IMG/VR virus record: IMGVR_UViG_3300024433_000051
Coordinates: 1-24,611 of that record
Reading direction: 5' to 3' (one strand)
From: a virus
DNA: 24,611 nucleotides
The notes under the pieces were generated by a model. That model ran no database searches, was not told the origin of the DNA, and saw only the letters and a program-made list of their open reading frames with translations. A program made the position numbers and the translations under genes. Positions 14,717 to 20,331 of this stretch are shown here, piece by piece; position 1 is the first letter of the stretch, and each line of letters starts with the position of its first letter.

Positions 14717-15235
14717 ATGTCAGACACAAAAACACACTACAGAAAAGCTTATAAATCGGACCACTTAGGGACGCCAGATTTAGAAGAATTAATAGAAGAA
14801 GGGAAGAAATTAGTATTTACTATCGACCACGTTACACAGAACATATTAACCCCAGGCGTAAAAGGAACTGGTATTAGTGTAGCTGGCCGAGTTATAAGCG
14901 CGAATATAGCGCACTTCAAAGAAGACATTAAGCCTTTAGTTTTGAATTCAACTAACGGAAAAATGATTAAAAAATTCGCTAATAGTTCGTTTATAGAAGA
15001 CTGGAAAAATATTTTAGTAGAACTATACATAGACTCAGCCGTAAAAATGAAAGGTACAGTAGTCGGAGGAATTAGAATTAGAAGTGTTCAGCCAGTAAAA
15101 GCTAAACACGTACTTACGCCAGATTCGCCTAAGTGGGAAGTAGCTAAAAAACGAGTAGCCGAAGGAATGAGCGAAAGCGAATTAAAAAACCACTTTGAAA
15201 TTACTAACGAAAATTTTAAATTATTATGTTCGTAA
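14717..15235 (+). CDS. OB-like phage replication/recombination-associated protein
   Basis: 172 residues. The central segment KPLVLNSTNGKMIKKF, then SSFIEDWKNILVELYIDSAV, then GTVVGGIRIRSVQP, resembles a family found beside recombination and replication genes in many phages; its pattern is an N-x-T-N segment, a DW-GK-like strand and a GxRIR strand. I believe these have an OB-like fold, but I cannot name a confirmed family. The C-terminus (about 140-172) is a separate helical piece ending in a SESELKNHFEI-type helix. It overlaps the exonuclease gene by 10 bp. Single-strand annealing or exonuclease-partner activity is inference from context, since no RecT or Erf homologue is seen. Confidence 0.6.
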   Translation: MSDTKTHYRKAYKSDHLGTPDLEELIEEGKKLVFTIDHVTQNILTPGVKGTGISVAGRVISANIAHFKEDIKPLVLNSTNGKMIKKFANSSFIEDWKNILVELYIDSAVKMKGTVVGGIRIRSVQPVKAKHVLTPDSPKWEVAKKRVAEGMSESELKNHFEITNENFKLLCS

Positions 15236-15849
15236 ATATAGACCAGAATACCGAAGAATGGCACTTTTTTAGATTAGGCAAAATAACAGCCTCTAATTTT
15301 GGGTCCGTAATGGCAAACGAAGGTAAAGCTTTCGGGGACCAAGCGAAAAAATACGCTGAAAGGATAGCTTTAGAAATAGTAACAGGCCGATTAGATGAAA
15401 GCTCAGGTTTTAGTAATTCTTTTATGGACAGGGGCCACGAATTAGAGCCTGTAGCTAAGGAATTATACGAATTAGAAACTATTCAGACAGTTAAAAACGG
15501 CGGCTTTCATTATATTGAAAATTATATAATTAAAATAGGAGCAAGCCCAGACGGTCTAGTAGGTCAAGACGGCTTAATAGAGATAAAAAGCGTAATACCG
15601 CATACGCAATTCAAAACAATAAAAAGAAATTCGTTCGACCCGTCTTATAAATGGCAGCTTTACGGCCACTTATTAATAACTGGGCGTAAATGGTGCGACT
15701 TTGTAAGTTACTGCCCAGAAATGCCAGAAAAAAAGCGTTTAATTATACATAGAGTAGAAAGGGACGAAGAAACATTAAACAGACTTAAAAATAGGTTAAT
15801 TCAATTTATTGGACTAATTCAGGAAAATATAAATTTATTAAATGATTGA
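15226..15849 (+). CDS. YqaJ-type (lambda Exo-like) 5'-3' exonuclease
   Basis: 207 residues, the usual length for YqaJ nucleases, which resect double-stranded DNA for single-strand annealing recombination. Motifs in order: RLGKITAS (16-23), RGHELEP (69-75), SPDG with Asp109, IEIKS with Glu119 and Lys121 (the PD-(D/E)xK core), and WQLYGHL (Gln144). All catalytic positions are kept. It overlaps both neighbours (10 bp upstream, 8 bp downstream), which suggests the three proteins are made together. No signal of decay. Confidence 0.9.
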   Translation: MFVNIDQNTEEWHFFRLGKITASNFGSVMANEGKAFGDQAKKYAERIALEIVTGRLDESSGFSNSFMDRGHELEPVAKELYELETIQTVKNGGFHYIENYIIKIGASPDGLVGQDGLIEIKSVIPHTQFKTIKRNSFDPSYKWQLYGHLLITGRKWCDFVSYCPEMPEKKRLIIHRVERDEETLNRLKNRLIQFIGLIQENINLLND

Positions 15850-16393
15850 TAAGGCAAAATTATTAGAATACCAGGCTAAATATAAAAAGCCGCTGAAAGT
15901 ATGGAAAGAACTATTTATAGAAGAAAAGCTACGCGGACAAATGGCTCAGAGCCTTAAAGAACGGGACACTTATTTAGGAGACACAGACCGAGACTATAGG
16001 GACTACTTCGAAGGGCTGTTCAGATTCAAGCAAAACGGTTCGAATGAAATTACAAAAAGTATTACTGGGTTTATAGATTTTATGGGAGGTTTAGGCGAAA
16101 GAATAAGTTCAGCTGGCCGATACGTCCCAGGCACTAAATACAAGGATATGGACGGTAAAAGATTCGAAACGAAAGGCAGCTTTATTCCGTCCACAACCAG
16201 AGCGGGTACTTCGGATATTTCAGCGACTATCTACGGGAAAACAATTAAAATAGAAGTTAAATACGGAAAAGATAGACTTTCGCAAAAACAGAAAGACTAC
16301 CTAATAAAAGCACATAACGCGGGCTGCTATTGTTACGTGGCTAAGGACTTCGACGGGTTTTTTGAATTCTTTTTAGAAAAGATAATTGAATAA
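15842..16393 (+). CDS. VRR-NUC-like PD-(D/E)xK nuclease
   Basis: 183 residues. The C-terminal half holds a compact nuclease core: GTSD (122-125) with Asp125, IEVK (137-140) with Glu138 and Lys140, then DRLSQKQKDYL (144-154), a helix typical of VRR-NUC and Holliday-junction-resolvase-like proteins, and GCYCYVAKD. The N-terminal half is charged and helical, of unknown role. It overlaps the YqaJ gene by 8 bp and directly precedes the repeat-rich origin region. Likely roles are branch resolution or recombination-intermediate cleavage; the family call is firm at the fold level and uncertain at the substrate level. Confidence 0.75.
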   Translation: MIDKAKLLEYQAKYKKPLKVWKELFIEEKLRGQMAQSLKERDTYLGDTDRDYRDYFEGLFRFKQNGSNEITKSITGFIDFMGGLGERISSAGRYVPGTKYKDMDGKRFETKGSFIPSTTRAGTSDISATIYGKTIKIEVKYGKDRLSQKQKDYLIKAHNAGCYCYVAKDFDGFFEFFLEKIIE

Positions 16394-16493
16394 TTACACA
16401 AATTACACACTTTTACACACAATTACACACTAGTAAAAACGCTATAAGTCAATGACAACAATAGATTCGGATGTTTTTACACACTTTTACACA
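16392..16493 (+). repeat. Left iteron arm, forward TTACACAC repeats
   Basis: Four copies at 16394, 16403, 16413 and 16423 with 9-10 bp spacing, then a pair at 16477 and 16487. Those at 16411-16419, 16475-16483 and 16485-16493 read TTTTACACA; those at 16392, 16401 and 16421 read AATTACACA. Confidence 0.85.
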
Positions 16494-16516
16494 TTATTTG
16501 TAAAATAAGGTTTTAC

Positions 16517-16530
16517 TGTGTAAATTACAC
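16517..16530. repeat. Central inverted iteron pair
   Basis: GTGTAA and TTACAC (16518-16523, 16525-16530) flank a single central A at 16524, forming a perfect palindrome where the two orientations meet. Two protein units bound here would face each other. Confidence 0.75.
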
Positions 16531-16594
16531 GCCCTTCTCTTAGTACTGATTTAAAGAAAGGTTATTAAATTAAACAAAACAAAAACTTAGAAAA

Positions 16595-16696
16595 ATGAAA
16601 AAACGTGTAAATGTGTGTAAAAACAGCCTCAAAGCTAATAATACTAAGGATTTAAGGCGTGTAAGTAGGTGTGTAAATGTGTGTAAATGTGTGTAA
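16595..16696 (+). CDS. Possible 33-residue peptide running through the right iteron arm
   Basis: ATG at 16595 follows AACAAAACAAAAACTTAGAA, an A-rich leader like those of the real genes here. The product is basic and Cys/Val-rich, ending VNVCKCV because the repeats encode C, V, N and K in this frame; the stop TAA is itself part of a repeat. It could be a chance reading of the iterons or a leader peptide for the primase gene 36 bp downstream. Confidence 0.25.
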   Translation: MKKRVNVCKNSLKANNTKDLRRVSRCVNVCKCV

Positions 16697-16705
16697 TTTT
16701 ACACA
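16604..16705 (-). repeat. Right iteron arm, inverted GTGTGTAA repeats
   Basis: GTGTAA starts at 16605, 16615, 16659, 16671, 16681 and 16691; the last three are spaced exactly 10 bp. The arm ends with a perfect inverted pair TGTGTAA-TT-TTACACA (16690-16705). A small open frame (16595-16696) runs through it. Confidence 0.85.
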
Positions 16706-16731: not shown

Positions 16732-18939
16732 ATGGCAGTAAAAATAGAAAGGGCTTTAGGGCTTTTACAGAAAAACTACAGTATAATTCCAATAGGACCG
16801 AAGAAAATACCAGCGTGTAAGTGGTCCAAATATATGAAGGAAAGAATTACTGAAGAAGAATTAAGAAAATATTCAAGTTCTGAGGGTTTCGGAATTGTAA
16901 CAGGTTATAACAACGTAGAGGCTATAGACGTAGATTTAAAAGTATTATCTACCCTTACAGAACAGCAAAACTTTTGGAAAGAATACTACAATTTTTTAAA
17001 AGACAATATAGAAGACTTCGATAAAAAAGTAGTAATAAGAAAAACTAAAAATAACGGCTACCATTTAATTTATAGATGTGAAGAAATAGAAGGCAATCAA
17101 AAATTAGCAAAATTAGAAGGCCACAAAGAAGCAATAATAGAAACTAGGGGAATAGGTGGTTATATTTTTATCTATGAAAACCAGGTAGGCGACTTAGATT
17201 ATACAGACCTTCAGGAAATTTCTATTTTAGAAAGGGGAATGATTATTGAAATATCTAAATATTACGACTTCAAACAAGAAACAATAAATTTAGATAAAGA
17301 AGCTAAAAGGGTAAACTACAATACAGAAACGACGCCCTGGGAAGACTATAATAATAAGCACACGGCTCTAGATGTAGTTAGCGACGAATTCGACGTGGTG
17401 GCTAATTTATCGGATAAATACATAATTAAACGGCTAGGGGCCAGTTCGGCACATTCAGGTTATATTTATAAAAACTCTAATTGTATGTATCTTTTTTCTA
17501 CTGGGACCCACTACCCAGCAGAAACACTTTTAAACGCTTTCGCTTGTTATACTTTCAGGTATCATAACGGCGATTTTTCCGCAGCTGCTAAGGAAGTTTA
17601 TAAGGAGGGCTACGGCGACAGGGTTATAAAAGAAGTCGAAGACCTTAAAAATACATTTAGGCCTGAAGACTTAAGCTTCCCTATAGATATTTTCCCAGAA
17701 AACTACCAAAGATATATTTTCGAGTGCTACCAGACCTTAGACGCTTCTATAGATTATATGGGCTGCAGTTTACTATGGGCTTTATCTTTAATAATTGGGA
17801 ATACAATTAACGTTGAAGTTAAAAAAGGCTGGAAAGAAAACGTAAATATCTGGATAGCATTAATAGGAAAGGCTGGCGTAGGTAAAACCCCTTCTATAGA
17901 TAAAATTATATTTCCACTACTAAAACAGAACACGCACGAAATAAAGCTTTACAGAAAAGAATACCAAAAATACGAAGACTTTAAGGCTAAGGAAAAATCT
18001 GAGCAGGATAAAACAGCCTCAGTAGATAAGCCTAGACAAAGCCAATTTATAGCGAACGACGTAACTAACGAAGCTTTAGTCCAAATGCACGAAGAAAATA
18101 AAAACGCTATAGCTGTATTTAAAGACGAGTTAGCGGGCTGGTTTAAGGATATGAACAAATATAGAGCGGGGTCAGATTTAGAATTCTGGCTTTCGTCCTG
18201 GTCTGGAAAGTCTGTTACTCTAAATAGAAAGACTTCAAAAAACAGTTTTGTAGAAAAGCCTTTAATTCCAGTTCTGGGAGGGATTCAACCTAGTATTTTA
18301 GATAGTTTTTACACGGATGAAAATAAAGATAACGGCTTTATAGATAGAATTTTATTTAGCTATCCTGATTTAAACGTAGAAAGCTATAACGAAGACGAAA
18401 TAAACCCGCAGCTTTTAGAATGGTACGAAGGCAGTTTAATAAAATTATACAACCACGCTAAAAAGCATTTACTAAGATTCAACGCAGACGATGAAGTAGA
18501 GCCGCACACAGCCGTATTTAGTAAAGCAGCTAGAAAGGAATGGATTAGAATATTTAACGAAATCACAGAAATGCAGAACAGCGAGACGGAAAACGAGTAT
18601 ATGAAAAGTATGTTACCTAAGCAAAAGTCTTATATTCCTAGATTTGCCCTTCTTATTAATTACATTAATTCAGACGATGAAAATAACGCTTTCGAAATTA
18701 GTAAGGAATCAATGTTAAAAGCGGAAAGTCTTAGTAATTACTTTGTAGCTATGGCTAAAAAGATTAAGATTCAAACATTTGAAAATAAAACAGCTAAGGA
18801 AATAATAGGCCTTACTAAAAATAAATCGAAAAAAGACCAGGCTGTAGAGATTCTTAAAAATAACCCAGATTTTAGTAAAGTAGAACTGGCTGAAATGTTA
18901 GACGTAAGTCGTAAAACTGTTTATAATTGGTTAAAATAA
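16732..18939 (+). CDS. Primase-polymerase / DUF3987 ATPase replication protein
   Basis: 735 residues with three parts. Residues 1-150 match the bifunctional primase/polymerase (Prim-Pol) domain: GPKKIPACKW, GFGIVTGYNN, catalytic IDVD (65-68), His111 in NNGYHLIYR, and ETRGIGGYI (137-145). Residues about 315-600 match DUF3987, an ATPase/helicase-like domain: Walker A GKAGVGKTPS (379-388), Walker B-like AVFKDEL (461-467), then LGGIQPSIL and GFIDRILFSYP with Arg539 as a possible arginine finger. The last ~22 residues are a helix-turn-helix (VELAEMLDVSRKTVYNWL). One polypeptide could thus prime, unwind and bind the adjacent origin repeats. The ATG is 36 bp after the repeats. Domain calls are strong; origin binding by the HTH is inference. 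Confidence 0.88.
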   Translation: MAVKIERALGLLQKNYSIIPIGPKKIPACKWSKYMKERITEEELRKYSSSEGFGIVTGYNNVEAIDVDLKVLSTLTEQQNFWKEYYNFLKDNIEDFDKKVVIRKTKNNGYHLIYRCEEIEGNQKLAKLEGHKEAIIETRGIGGYIFIYENQVGDLDYTDLQEISILERGMIIEISKYYDFKQETINLDKEAKRVNYNTETTPWEDYNNKHTALDVVSDEFDVVANLSDKYIIKRLGASSAHSGYIYKNSNCMYLFSTGTHYPAETLLNAFACYTFRYHNGDFSAAAKEVYKEGYGDRVIKEVEDLKNTFRPEDLSFPIDIFPENYQRYIFECYQTLDASIDYMGCSLLWALSLIIGNTINVEVKKGWKENVNIWIALIGKAGVGKTPSIDKIIFPLLKQNTHEIKLYRKEYQKYEDFKAKEKSEQDKTASVDKPRQSQFIANDVTNEALVQMHEENKNAIAVFKDELAGWFKDMNKYRAGSDLEFWLSSWSGKSVTLNRKTSKNSFVEKPLIPVLGGIQPSILDSFYTDENKDNGFIDRILFSYPDLNVESYNEDEINPQLLEWYEGSLIKLYNHAKKHLLRFNADDEVEPHTAVFSKAARKEWIRIFNEITEMQNSETENEYMKSMLPKQKSYIPRFALLINYINSDDENNAFEISKESMLKAESLSNYFVAMAKKIKIQTFENKTAKEIIGLTKNKSKKDQAVEILKNNPDFSKVELAEMLDVSRKTVYNWLK

Positions 18940-19686: not shown

Positions 19687-19969
19687 AGCAACTATGCCGT
19701 TAATGAAAGGCACGAACTTAAAACCTGAAAACCTGGTATCTTCTTCTTTGGTTTTAGAGTATGAAATAGAAATACTTAGACTTAACCCAGGCCACAAGGT
19801 AACACTAAAAGCGACTAAATTAAACGGTAATCTGTATTTAGAGCGAAACGATAAATTTAATTTAAGCGAATTTTCATTAGATAATATAAACGCACTTTCC
19901 AAAACTGAAGAAAATAAATATTGCAAATGGTTTGTAGATTTTGAAAATAAAAAAATTGTACTATGCTAG
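19676..19969 (+). CDS. Early protein, unknown function
   Basis: 97 residues, mostly beta-like (LVLEYEIEILRL, HKVTLKATKLNGNLYLE), ending with KKIVLC. Its ATG lies in the last codons of the previous gene, and the next ATG (19963) lies in its own last codons, so the three genes are coupled. No family recognised. It sits immediately before the DnaA-like gene. Confidence 0.65.
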   Translation: MKFKATMPLMKGTNLKPENLVSSSLVLEYEIEILRLNPGHKVTLKATKLNGNLYLERNDKFNLSEFSLDNINALSKTEENKYCKWFVDFENKKIVLC

Positions 19970-20331
19970 AAAATAAAAGGATTGAATTAGAAATGCGGAT
20001 AGCCTCTAATATAATTTATAGAGATTCAGCAACAATAGAACAGACTGTAAAAAATATTATTTCAGACGTTTGTTTTTTAGGAGGCTTTAATAAAGACACG
20101 CTTTTAAACGGTCAAAAGACGCCAGAGTTAACAGCTGCTAGGAGGTGTATATCTTTTTTTCTAAGGATTAATTTAGAATTAAAAATGAGCGAAATAGGAA
20201 AAGTTATAAATAGAGACCATTCTACAATTAATAACCAACTGGAATTTATGCTAACTAGATTAGACAATTTACAGGCTTTTCCAGAACACTATAAATATTA
20301 TAAATTCATAAATAAAAACTTTGTAAAATGA
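19963..20331 (+). CDS. Stand-alone DnaA domain IV-like protein
   Basis: 122 residues. Residues about 55-105 match the DnaA C-terminal DNA-binding domain (Bac_DnaA_C): AARRCISFFLRINLEL, then MSEIGKVINRDHSTINNQLE. The signature R-D-H-S-T at 84-88 keeps the Asp-His-Ser/Thr-Thr turn whose His and Thr read DnaA boxes in bacterial DnaA. The AAA+ ATPase domain and domains I-II are absent; residues 1-50 are a short unrelated helical stretch. It could recognise DnaA-box-like repeats such as those at 16394-16705, or compete with host DnaA. Overlaps both neighbours by 4-7 bp. The domain call is firm, the target is inference. Confidence 0.8.
   Translation: MLENKRIELEMRIASNIIYRDSATIEQTVKNIISDVCFLGGFNKDTLLNGQKTPELTAARRCISFFLRINLELKMSEIGKVINRDHSTINNQLEFMLTRLDNLQAFPEHYKYYKFINKNFVK

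Follow-up and report, generated by a model that had tools for sequence, protein, structure and literature searches.

The window analyzed here is a whole virus record of 24,611 bases, probably a genome fragment, in which an intergenic cluster of short repeats separates two recombination nuclease genes on its left (YqaJ, then VRR-NUC) from a primase-polymerase (PrimPol) gene on its right, just where the original prediction had placed it. The last repeat unit ends 27 bp before this gene, which encodes a protein of 735 aa (Table 1). Fifteen TTACAC/GTGTAA units fall within 311 bp (16394–16704), and a 16th lies at 16815 within the primase gene. The whole 24.6-kb window holds 28 such units compared with 11.2 ± 3.5 in shuffled sequences (maximum 22; none of 100 shuffles reached 28), so that the 13 units outside the cluster are at chance level and the count of 15 units at a single site, as predicted, is far above chance. 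All 5 copies of the longer pattern TTTTACACA in the record fall inside the cluster (reversed control pattern: 0), so that it is present in only 5 of the 15 units.

From left to right, six forward units are followed by an inverted pair at 16518/16525; of the remaining units, six are inverted and the last is forward again. Many units are spaced by exactly 10 bp, in four such runs (16403-16413-16423, 16477-16487, 16605-16615, and 16671-16681-16691), which places them in helical phase. Both inverted pairs that had been noted are present in the letters, GTGTAA-A-TTACAC at 16518–16530 and TGTGTAA-TT-TTACACA at 16690–16705, the latter with perfect arms of 7 bp and a spacer of 2 nt. The earlier description as two opposing arms captures that the left units are forward and the right ones mostly inverted, but the cluster really consists of four groups of units with three spacers, two of around 40–50 bp and one A/T-rich, a layout that is found in many relatives as well.

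Table 1. Features of the repeat cluster and neighboring genes (window positions) and of nucleases in relatives (positions within the named locus).
Feature	Position	Strand	Description
YqaJ/RecE-like exonuclease gene	15226..15849	+	E 5.7e-15; upstream context
VRR-NUC-like nuclease gene	15842..16393	+	Context; stop codon abuts the first predicted iteron
Predicted iteron group 1	16394..16428	+	Four forward TTACAC units (16394, 16403, 16413, 16423), 9–10 bp apart; de novo motif
Spacer/core 1, AAAAACGCTATAAGTCAATGAC...	16429..16476	.	About 4–5 helical turns between predicted iterons; relatives have core spacers of ~44 bp at the equivalent place
Predicted iteron group 2	16477..16530	.	Units 16477+, 16487+; inverted pair 16518-/16525+ = GTGTAAATTACAC
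A/T-rich spacer, A-tract on right side	16531..16604	.	Candidate DNA-unwinding element (putative role); compare the A-tract spacer of relatives
Predicted iteron group 3	16605..16620	-	Units 16605-, 16615-
Spacer/core 2, ...CTAATAATACTAAGGATTTAAGGCG	16621..16658	.	Between predicted iteron groups 3 and 4
Predicted iteron group 4	16659..16705	.	Units 16659-, 16671-, 16681-, 16691-, 16699+; includes the inverted pair 16690-16705
Putative initiator/replicase gene, 735 aa	16732..18939	+	PrimPol (PF09250) + DUF3987 with MCM-like AAA+ fold + C-terminal HTH; Pfam, AlphaFold2, Foldseek, VIA-align
C-terminal HTH codons, residues 700-735	18829..18936	+	Proposed origin-binding domain; modelled helices 700-710, 716-722, 727-734; covaries with word
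Predicted recognition helix, residues 727-734, RKTVYNWL	18910..18933	+	Word-determining columns R727, K728, T729, N732
Small DnaA domain-IV-like protein (Bac_DnaA_C)	19963..20331	+	E 8.7e-8; rejected as repeat reader
T5orf172/GIY-YIG-HTH nucleases	L235:1944-2486; L205:5101-5763; L206:5090-5746; L203:4369-4911		Beside predicted origin
T5orf172/GIY-YIG-HTH nucleases, more	L170:4959-5555; L037:5608-6105; L009:2380-2961; L317-L332, L350		Beside predicted origin

The 735-aa protein matches the Pfam families PrimPol (31.1 bits against a curated cut-off of 22.8) and DUF3987 (PF13148; 206.6 bits against 27), with weak HTH profile matches at its extreme C-terminus. Its AlphaFold2 model (pLDDT 86) ends in a three-helix HTH spanning residues 700–734, of which 727–734 form the third helix; a PDB sequence search with this HTH returned no meaningful match. 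The N-terminus resembles the PrimPol fold of pRN1 (Foldseek 5e-8), while residues 319–681 (window 17686–18774) match MCM chains over ~273 residues (VIA-align; Z 17, rmsd 3.6, 11% identity), which is a likeness of fold only. An MCM-like AAA+ fold is predicted here for DUF3987, a family that Pfam lists as being of unknown function.

Relatives of the 735-aa protein were found at several hundred loci in IMG/VR, and 84,980 bacterial and archaeal genomes added 8 loci, all from MAGs whose label is Bacteroidota or one of its lineages except for one Sphingomonadaceae bin with a 3-kb contig. Removal of duplicates left 199 distinct proteins. Clustered 6-mers were then searched de novo from 1.3 kb before the gene to 0.8 kb after it (score cut-off 17), which revealed a strong cluster in 180 of the 199 relatives, on one side only (97 downstream, 83 upstream) and with a median score of 28 compared with 7 on the gene's other side. 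Cluster calls were weak or artefactual at 20 of the 199 loci; several weak-scoring ones inspected by eye (L205, L235, and L089) do contain repeats, with a more degenerate word. The strongest cluster of L043/L215 is a coding pentapeptide-type repeat (TTATCCAACGCT) and was left out as an artefact, and with L215 dropped for this reason 179 loci were kept, i.e., relatives sharing the replication gene have a cluster adjoining it in 179 of 199 cases. In L043, dense TTATCCAACGCTGAT repeats lie ~1130 bp upstream of the PrimPol match in pentapeptide-repeat-like coding sequence that mimics an iteron cluster. The words repeated in the relatives include TTTACAC, GTTTAAA, TGTTACA, TGTCGCA, TTCACAC, TGCACAC, GGTTTACAC, GGTTACAC, TGTTACAC, TTTTCACACC, TTGCACAC, GTTCAA, CTTTCCACC, TTACCCA, and others, are often different from TTACAC, and amount to about 17 core words across the 179 phages.

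Each locus has 8–15 sites (median 12) over a median span of 263 bp, with a modal same-strand spacing of 9–12 bp, divergent pairs mostly 7–11 bp apart, and convergent pairs mostly 42–47 bp apart. The commonest layout (39/83) runs from iterons over a core spacer, iterons, an A/T-rich spacer, iterons, and a second core spacer to a last set of iterons, and the window follows this order with a middle spacer that is less A/T-rich. EM searches for a core returned the A-tract and then HTH coding sequence; the core, finally read directly from the spacers, is a loose element, CAATGTTTATAAGG, that is found within three mismatches in 36 of 83 origins compared with 3 in control sequence and is matched weakly by the core spacers of the window. 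As in iteron origins, these loci combine many short, helically phased repeats adjoining a putative initiator gene with an A/T-rich region within or beside the repeats, for which most relatives have an A-tract spacer and the window is a weaker example.

It is very probable that 16394–16705 is a phage replication origin and that the TTACAC units are iterons for the C-terminal HTH of the adjacent 735-aa PrimPol/MCM-like-AAA+ protein. Because the window is a fragment whose cumulative GC skew, suggested earlier as an indicator, rises throughout its 24.6 kb and marks no origin, the assignment of origin function as the most likely one rests on anatomy and analogy. Several copies of the protein would bind the four iteron groups via their C-terminal HTH, with these groups sitting about one helical turn apart around the two core spacers and the A/T-rich spacer; the AAA+ domain would then open and unwind the A/T-rich part, and the PrimPol domain would prime. 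We infer melting, priming, and initiation at the cluster from the domains of the protein and from the precedents of P4 alpha, pRN1, and iteron plasmids (PMC4234260, PMC5862659); the specificity of the proposed binding has support from comparison.

It is unlikely that the cluster is instead an operator at which the PrimPol HTH or some other factor controls transcription of the replication operon while replication starts elsewhere. The 83 of 180 loci with the cluster upstream of the gene would fit this explanation, as would the fact that iteron binding can also autoregulate, but in the other 97 the PrimPol gene precedes the cluster, and 8–15 sites with an A/T-rich spacer suit an origin better than an operator. 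Autoregulation may be an extra role of the cluster beside that of a replication origin.

The original prediction had further proposed an origin whose boxes drifted from host DnaA toward a phage protein, with the products of the genes at 19963 and 16732 as possible binders. The iteron-type origin, its reading by a phage protein, and its conservation in relatives were borne out, but a descent from DnaA boxes was not, since relatives use words unlike that box. It is very unlikely that the repeats derive from DnaA boxes by a shift and are bound by host DnaA or by the domain-IV protein of the phage (19963–20331), even though a Bac_DnaA_C protein is encoded 3 kb downstream of the site and TTTTACACA fits TTWTNCACA, the relaxed form of the DnaA box. 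The perfect box TTATCCACA occurs in 0 of 83 origins, TTWTNCACA is found in 7 of 83 compared with 3.2 expected from local shuffling and does not mark them as DnaA origins, and many words such as GTTTAAA, TGTCGCA, TTACCCA, or GTTCAA do not resemble a DnaA box at all. The DnaA_C protein was rejected as reader of the repeats because it does not vary in step with the word (rho 0.11 over 31 loci, compared with 0.52 for the PrimPol recognition helix); L051 and L064, for example, have 96% identical DnaA_C proteins together with unrelated words and different PrimPol helices, and, of the 24 relatives whose flanks are complete, 13 have no detectable DnaA_C. Between the two proposed binders, covariation thus points to the PrimPol protein as the likely reader of the predicted iterons.

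The protein encoded at 19963–20331 (122 aa) comprises solely the DNA-binding part resembling DnaA domain IV; varied relatives accompany these replication genes at 31 of 81 loci, and no direct relatives were found with the single sequence as query. In L060, whose TGTCGCA cluster is downstream of the PrimPol gene, a perfect TTATCCACA box follows closely on the last unit, just beyond the cluster.

How closely the word follows the PrimPol protein was analyzed column by column. Word similarity is nearly independent of overall PrimPol identity (Spearman 0.05), and shared descent is therefore a small confounder. In a regression of word similarity on the identity of each residue, made separately for bins of identity over the whole protein, the seven highest-ranking columns out of 674 were N732, R727, K728, T729, K716, V717, and Y731, all of them in the HTH. 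After dereplication to 83 or 63 loci, the top five columns were unchanged, with observed values of 0.39–0.40 compared with permutation maxima of 0.06–0.10. Comparison across the relatives shows a cluster conserved beside the gene and a word that covaries with residues 727, 728, 729, and 732, so that, at the level of sequence, word identity is tracked by the last 36 residues of the protein, i.e., by the HTH.

The rules linking helix residues to word bases appear near-deterministic. Arg728 goes with C at p5 in 38 of 38 loci, and residue 727 goes with C at p7 when it is Arg or Lys (135/136) and with A when it is Leu, Val, or Ile (42/43), while Lys, Arg, and Asn at residue 732 go with three classes of words, which have G at p2, G at p3, and mostly neither, respectively. 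Among phylogenetically independent word switches, the residue differs in 33 of 37 cases for 732, 19 of 22 for 728, and 14 of 17 for 727, compared with fractions of 0.24, 0.04, and 0.01, respectively, in matched pairs with the same word. The frames of TTACCCA, TGCACGG, and the palindromic GTTTAAA were set by hand for these contingency tables; the ranking of columns is independent of the frame. The helix of the window, with R727, K728, and N732, agrees with its word TTACAC.

That word and HTH are associated through physical linkage in a co-inherited cassette, without the HTH reading the repeats, is hardly tenable: cassette swaps do exist where the cluster lies directly downstream of the HTH codons, but at loci with an upstream cluster, a median of 2.6 kb from these codons, residues 732, 728, 729, and 727 still rank 1–4 of 633, which excludes simple linkage as the cause, residues 719–726 and third codon positions there show mostly little association with the word, and the rules apply at particular base positions.

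Under recognition of the iterons by the HTH, as we propose it, the swaps would document changes of specificity. PrimPol bodies that are 99% identical occur with unrelated words, and the HTH has changed in those phages: DNA identity is mostly ~85–100% up to the HTH codons, ~22–66% across HTH and origin, and ~85–98% downstream. The cleanest swap, between L201 and L204, shows ~95–100% identity, then 22–49% over HTH and origin, and then ~84–100%. This dip over HTH and origin indicates that specificity is swapped as a module of ~400 bp where the origin lies downstream; word switches with an upstream origin are also found (L214, L216, and L218). Word specificity appears to change frequently, either through recombination that exchanges HTH and origin as one cassette or through substitutions. 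A likely but unproven driver of this turnover is conflict, be it with related phages, with satellites, or with nucleases that cut origins. Origin identity may be something over which related phages compete.

Several known systems share parts of this organization. The O proteins of lambdoid phages have no primase or helicase domain and bind the origin with their N-terminal part, whereas here a C-terminal HTH would do so. The lambdoid phages lambda, phi80, and 82 are alike in having a type-specific initiator with the iterons inside its own gene, which keeps specificity within one cassette (Furth and Yates 1978, cited in PMC6022878). P4 alpha and the P4 origin resemble the system proposed here in combining priming, unwinding, and an origin-binding domain in one protein with repeats that are bound by this domain, but through a Toprim-type primase and a winged-helix; the protein studied here has a PrimPol instead, together with DUF3987/MCM-like and short C-terminal HTH parts, and the likeness does not imply homology (PMC4234260). 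pRN1 ORF904 and PrimPol-PV1 have a structurally related PrimPol and a gene that is followed directly by the origin, an order also predicted for half of our loci, and a C-terminal WH was proposed to recognize their origins; however, the pRN1 origin is a stem-loop and not made of iterons, and its C-terminal recognition is a proposal without a specificity code (PMC4234260; PMC5862659). The iteron-related domain of geminivirus Rep is matched to short iterons that differ among close relatives, but this Rep is an unrelated rolling-circle protein of ssDNA plant viruses (PMC12548392).

A parallel in logic comes from PLE satellites and phage ICP1. The DNA-binding domain of the PLE initiator RepA covaries with the iterons and moves as a module, PLEs have swapped RepA-domain/origin modules, and the ICP1 nuclease Odn, a T5orf172 nuclease with an initiator-like binding domain, cuts PLE origins (PMC8263062). 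PLEs differ in having a satellite RepA_N initiator, two origin types, and three ~30-bp iterons (PMC8263062), whereas the loci studied here have phage PrimPol initiators, many words of 6–8 bp at 8–15 sites, and T5orf172-HTH genes that adjoin the predicted origin of the phage itself. There are precedents for specificity between initiator and iterons, for swaps of modules, and for nucleases directed at origins, each taken separately. As far as we searched, the novelty lies in the phage family, in its PrimPol/MCM-like/HTH initiator together with the predicted origin, in a code that is readable over many words, and in a nuclease gene next to the origin whose product has an HTH of this type, in a setting of phages instead of one directed at a satellite. 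None of this was found described in the open-access PMC literature that was searched. In this dsDNA phage family, sequence comparison is enough to match the initiator with its predicted origin, and 179 phages with ~17 core words allow the rules by which a natural HTH would recognize DNA to be read. The evolution of initiator-origin specificity would become testable at the level of single residues, and the same rules offer a uniform route to origins in mostly uncultured Bacteroidota phages.

At least 8 relatives encode, immediately beside the predicted origin, a T5orf172/GIY-YIG nuclease with a C-terminal HTH related to that of the primase (none is assigned to the window). A dedicated scan found 38 nuclease loci, of which ~18 have a primase-type HTH and nearly all of these adjoin PrimPol and the repeat cluster. 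Seven proteins match Pfam T5orf172 with E values of 4.5e-8 to 6e-11, and matches to a primase-HTH model reach down to 4e-12. As in ICP1 Odn, the two domains are fused, with the nuclease part well conserved and the HTH variable. For nuclease helices with Lys, Asn, or Arg at position 732 (about 5 distinct ones, as judged by eye: L328, L329/L330, L331, L332, and L350), the predicted word differs from that of the own origin in every case, as self-avoidance would require, though at this number chance could produce the same result. A tentative scenario, built on analogy and given somewhat less than even weight, is that a large family of Bacteroidota phages swaps an alphabet of ~17 origin words read by a near-deterministic HTH code and that an arms race with T5orf172-HTH nucleases, which some members encode beside their origins and which would cut the origins of competitors and spare their own, would drive the turnover. 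If true, the origin-targeting logic of ICP1 and PLE would be seen here for a second time, independently and acting between phages. Extra origin copies can arrest lambda (PMC4488673), and decoys may therefore be another possible pressure.

Relatives of these nucleases without HTH are encoded in L337, L338, L340, L341, and L348, which are loci without this PrimPol; they lie near clusters of 6–9 GGTTAC-like words, located about +520 to +590 from the nuclease, that are possibly origins of another replication system.
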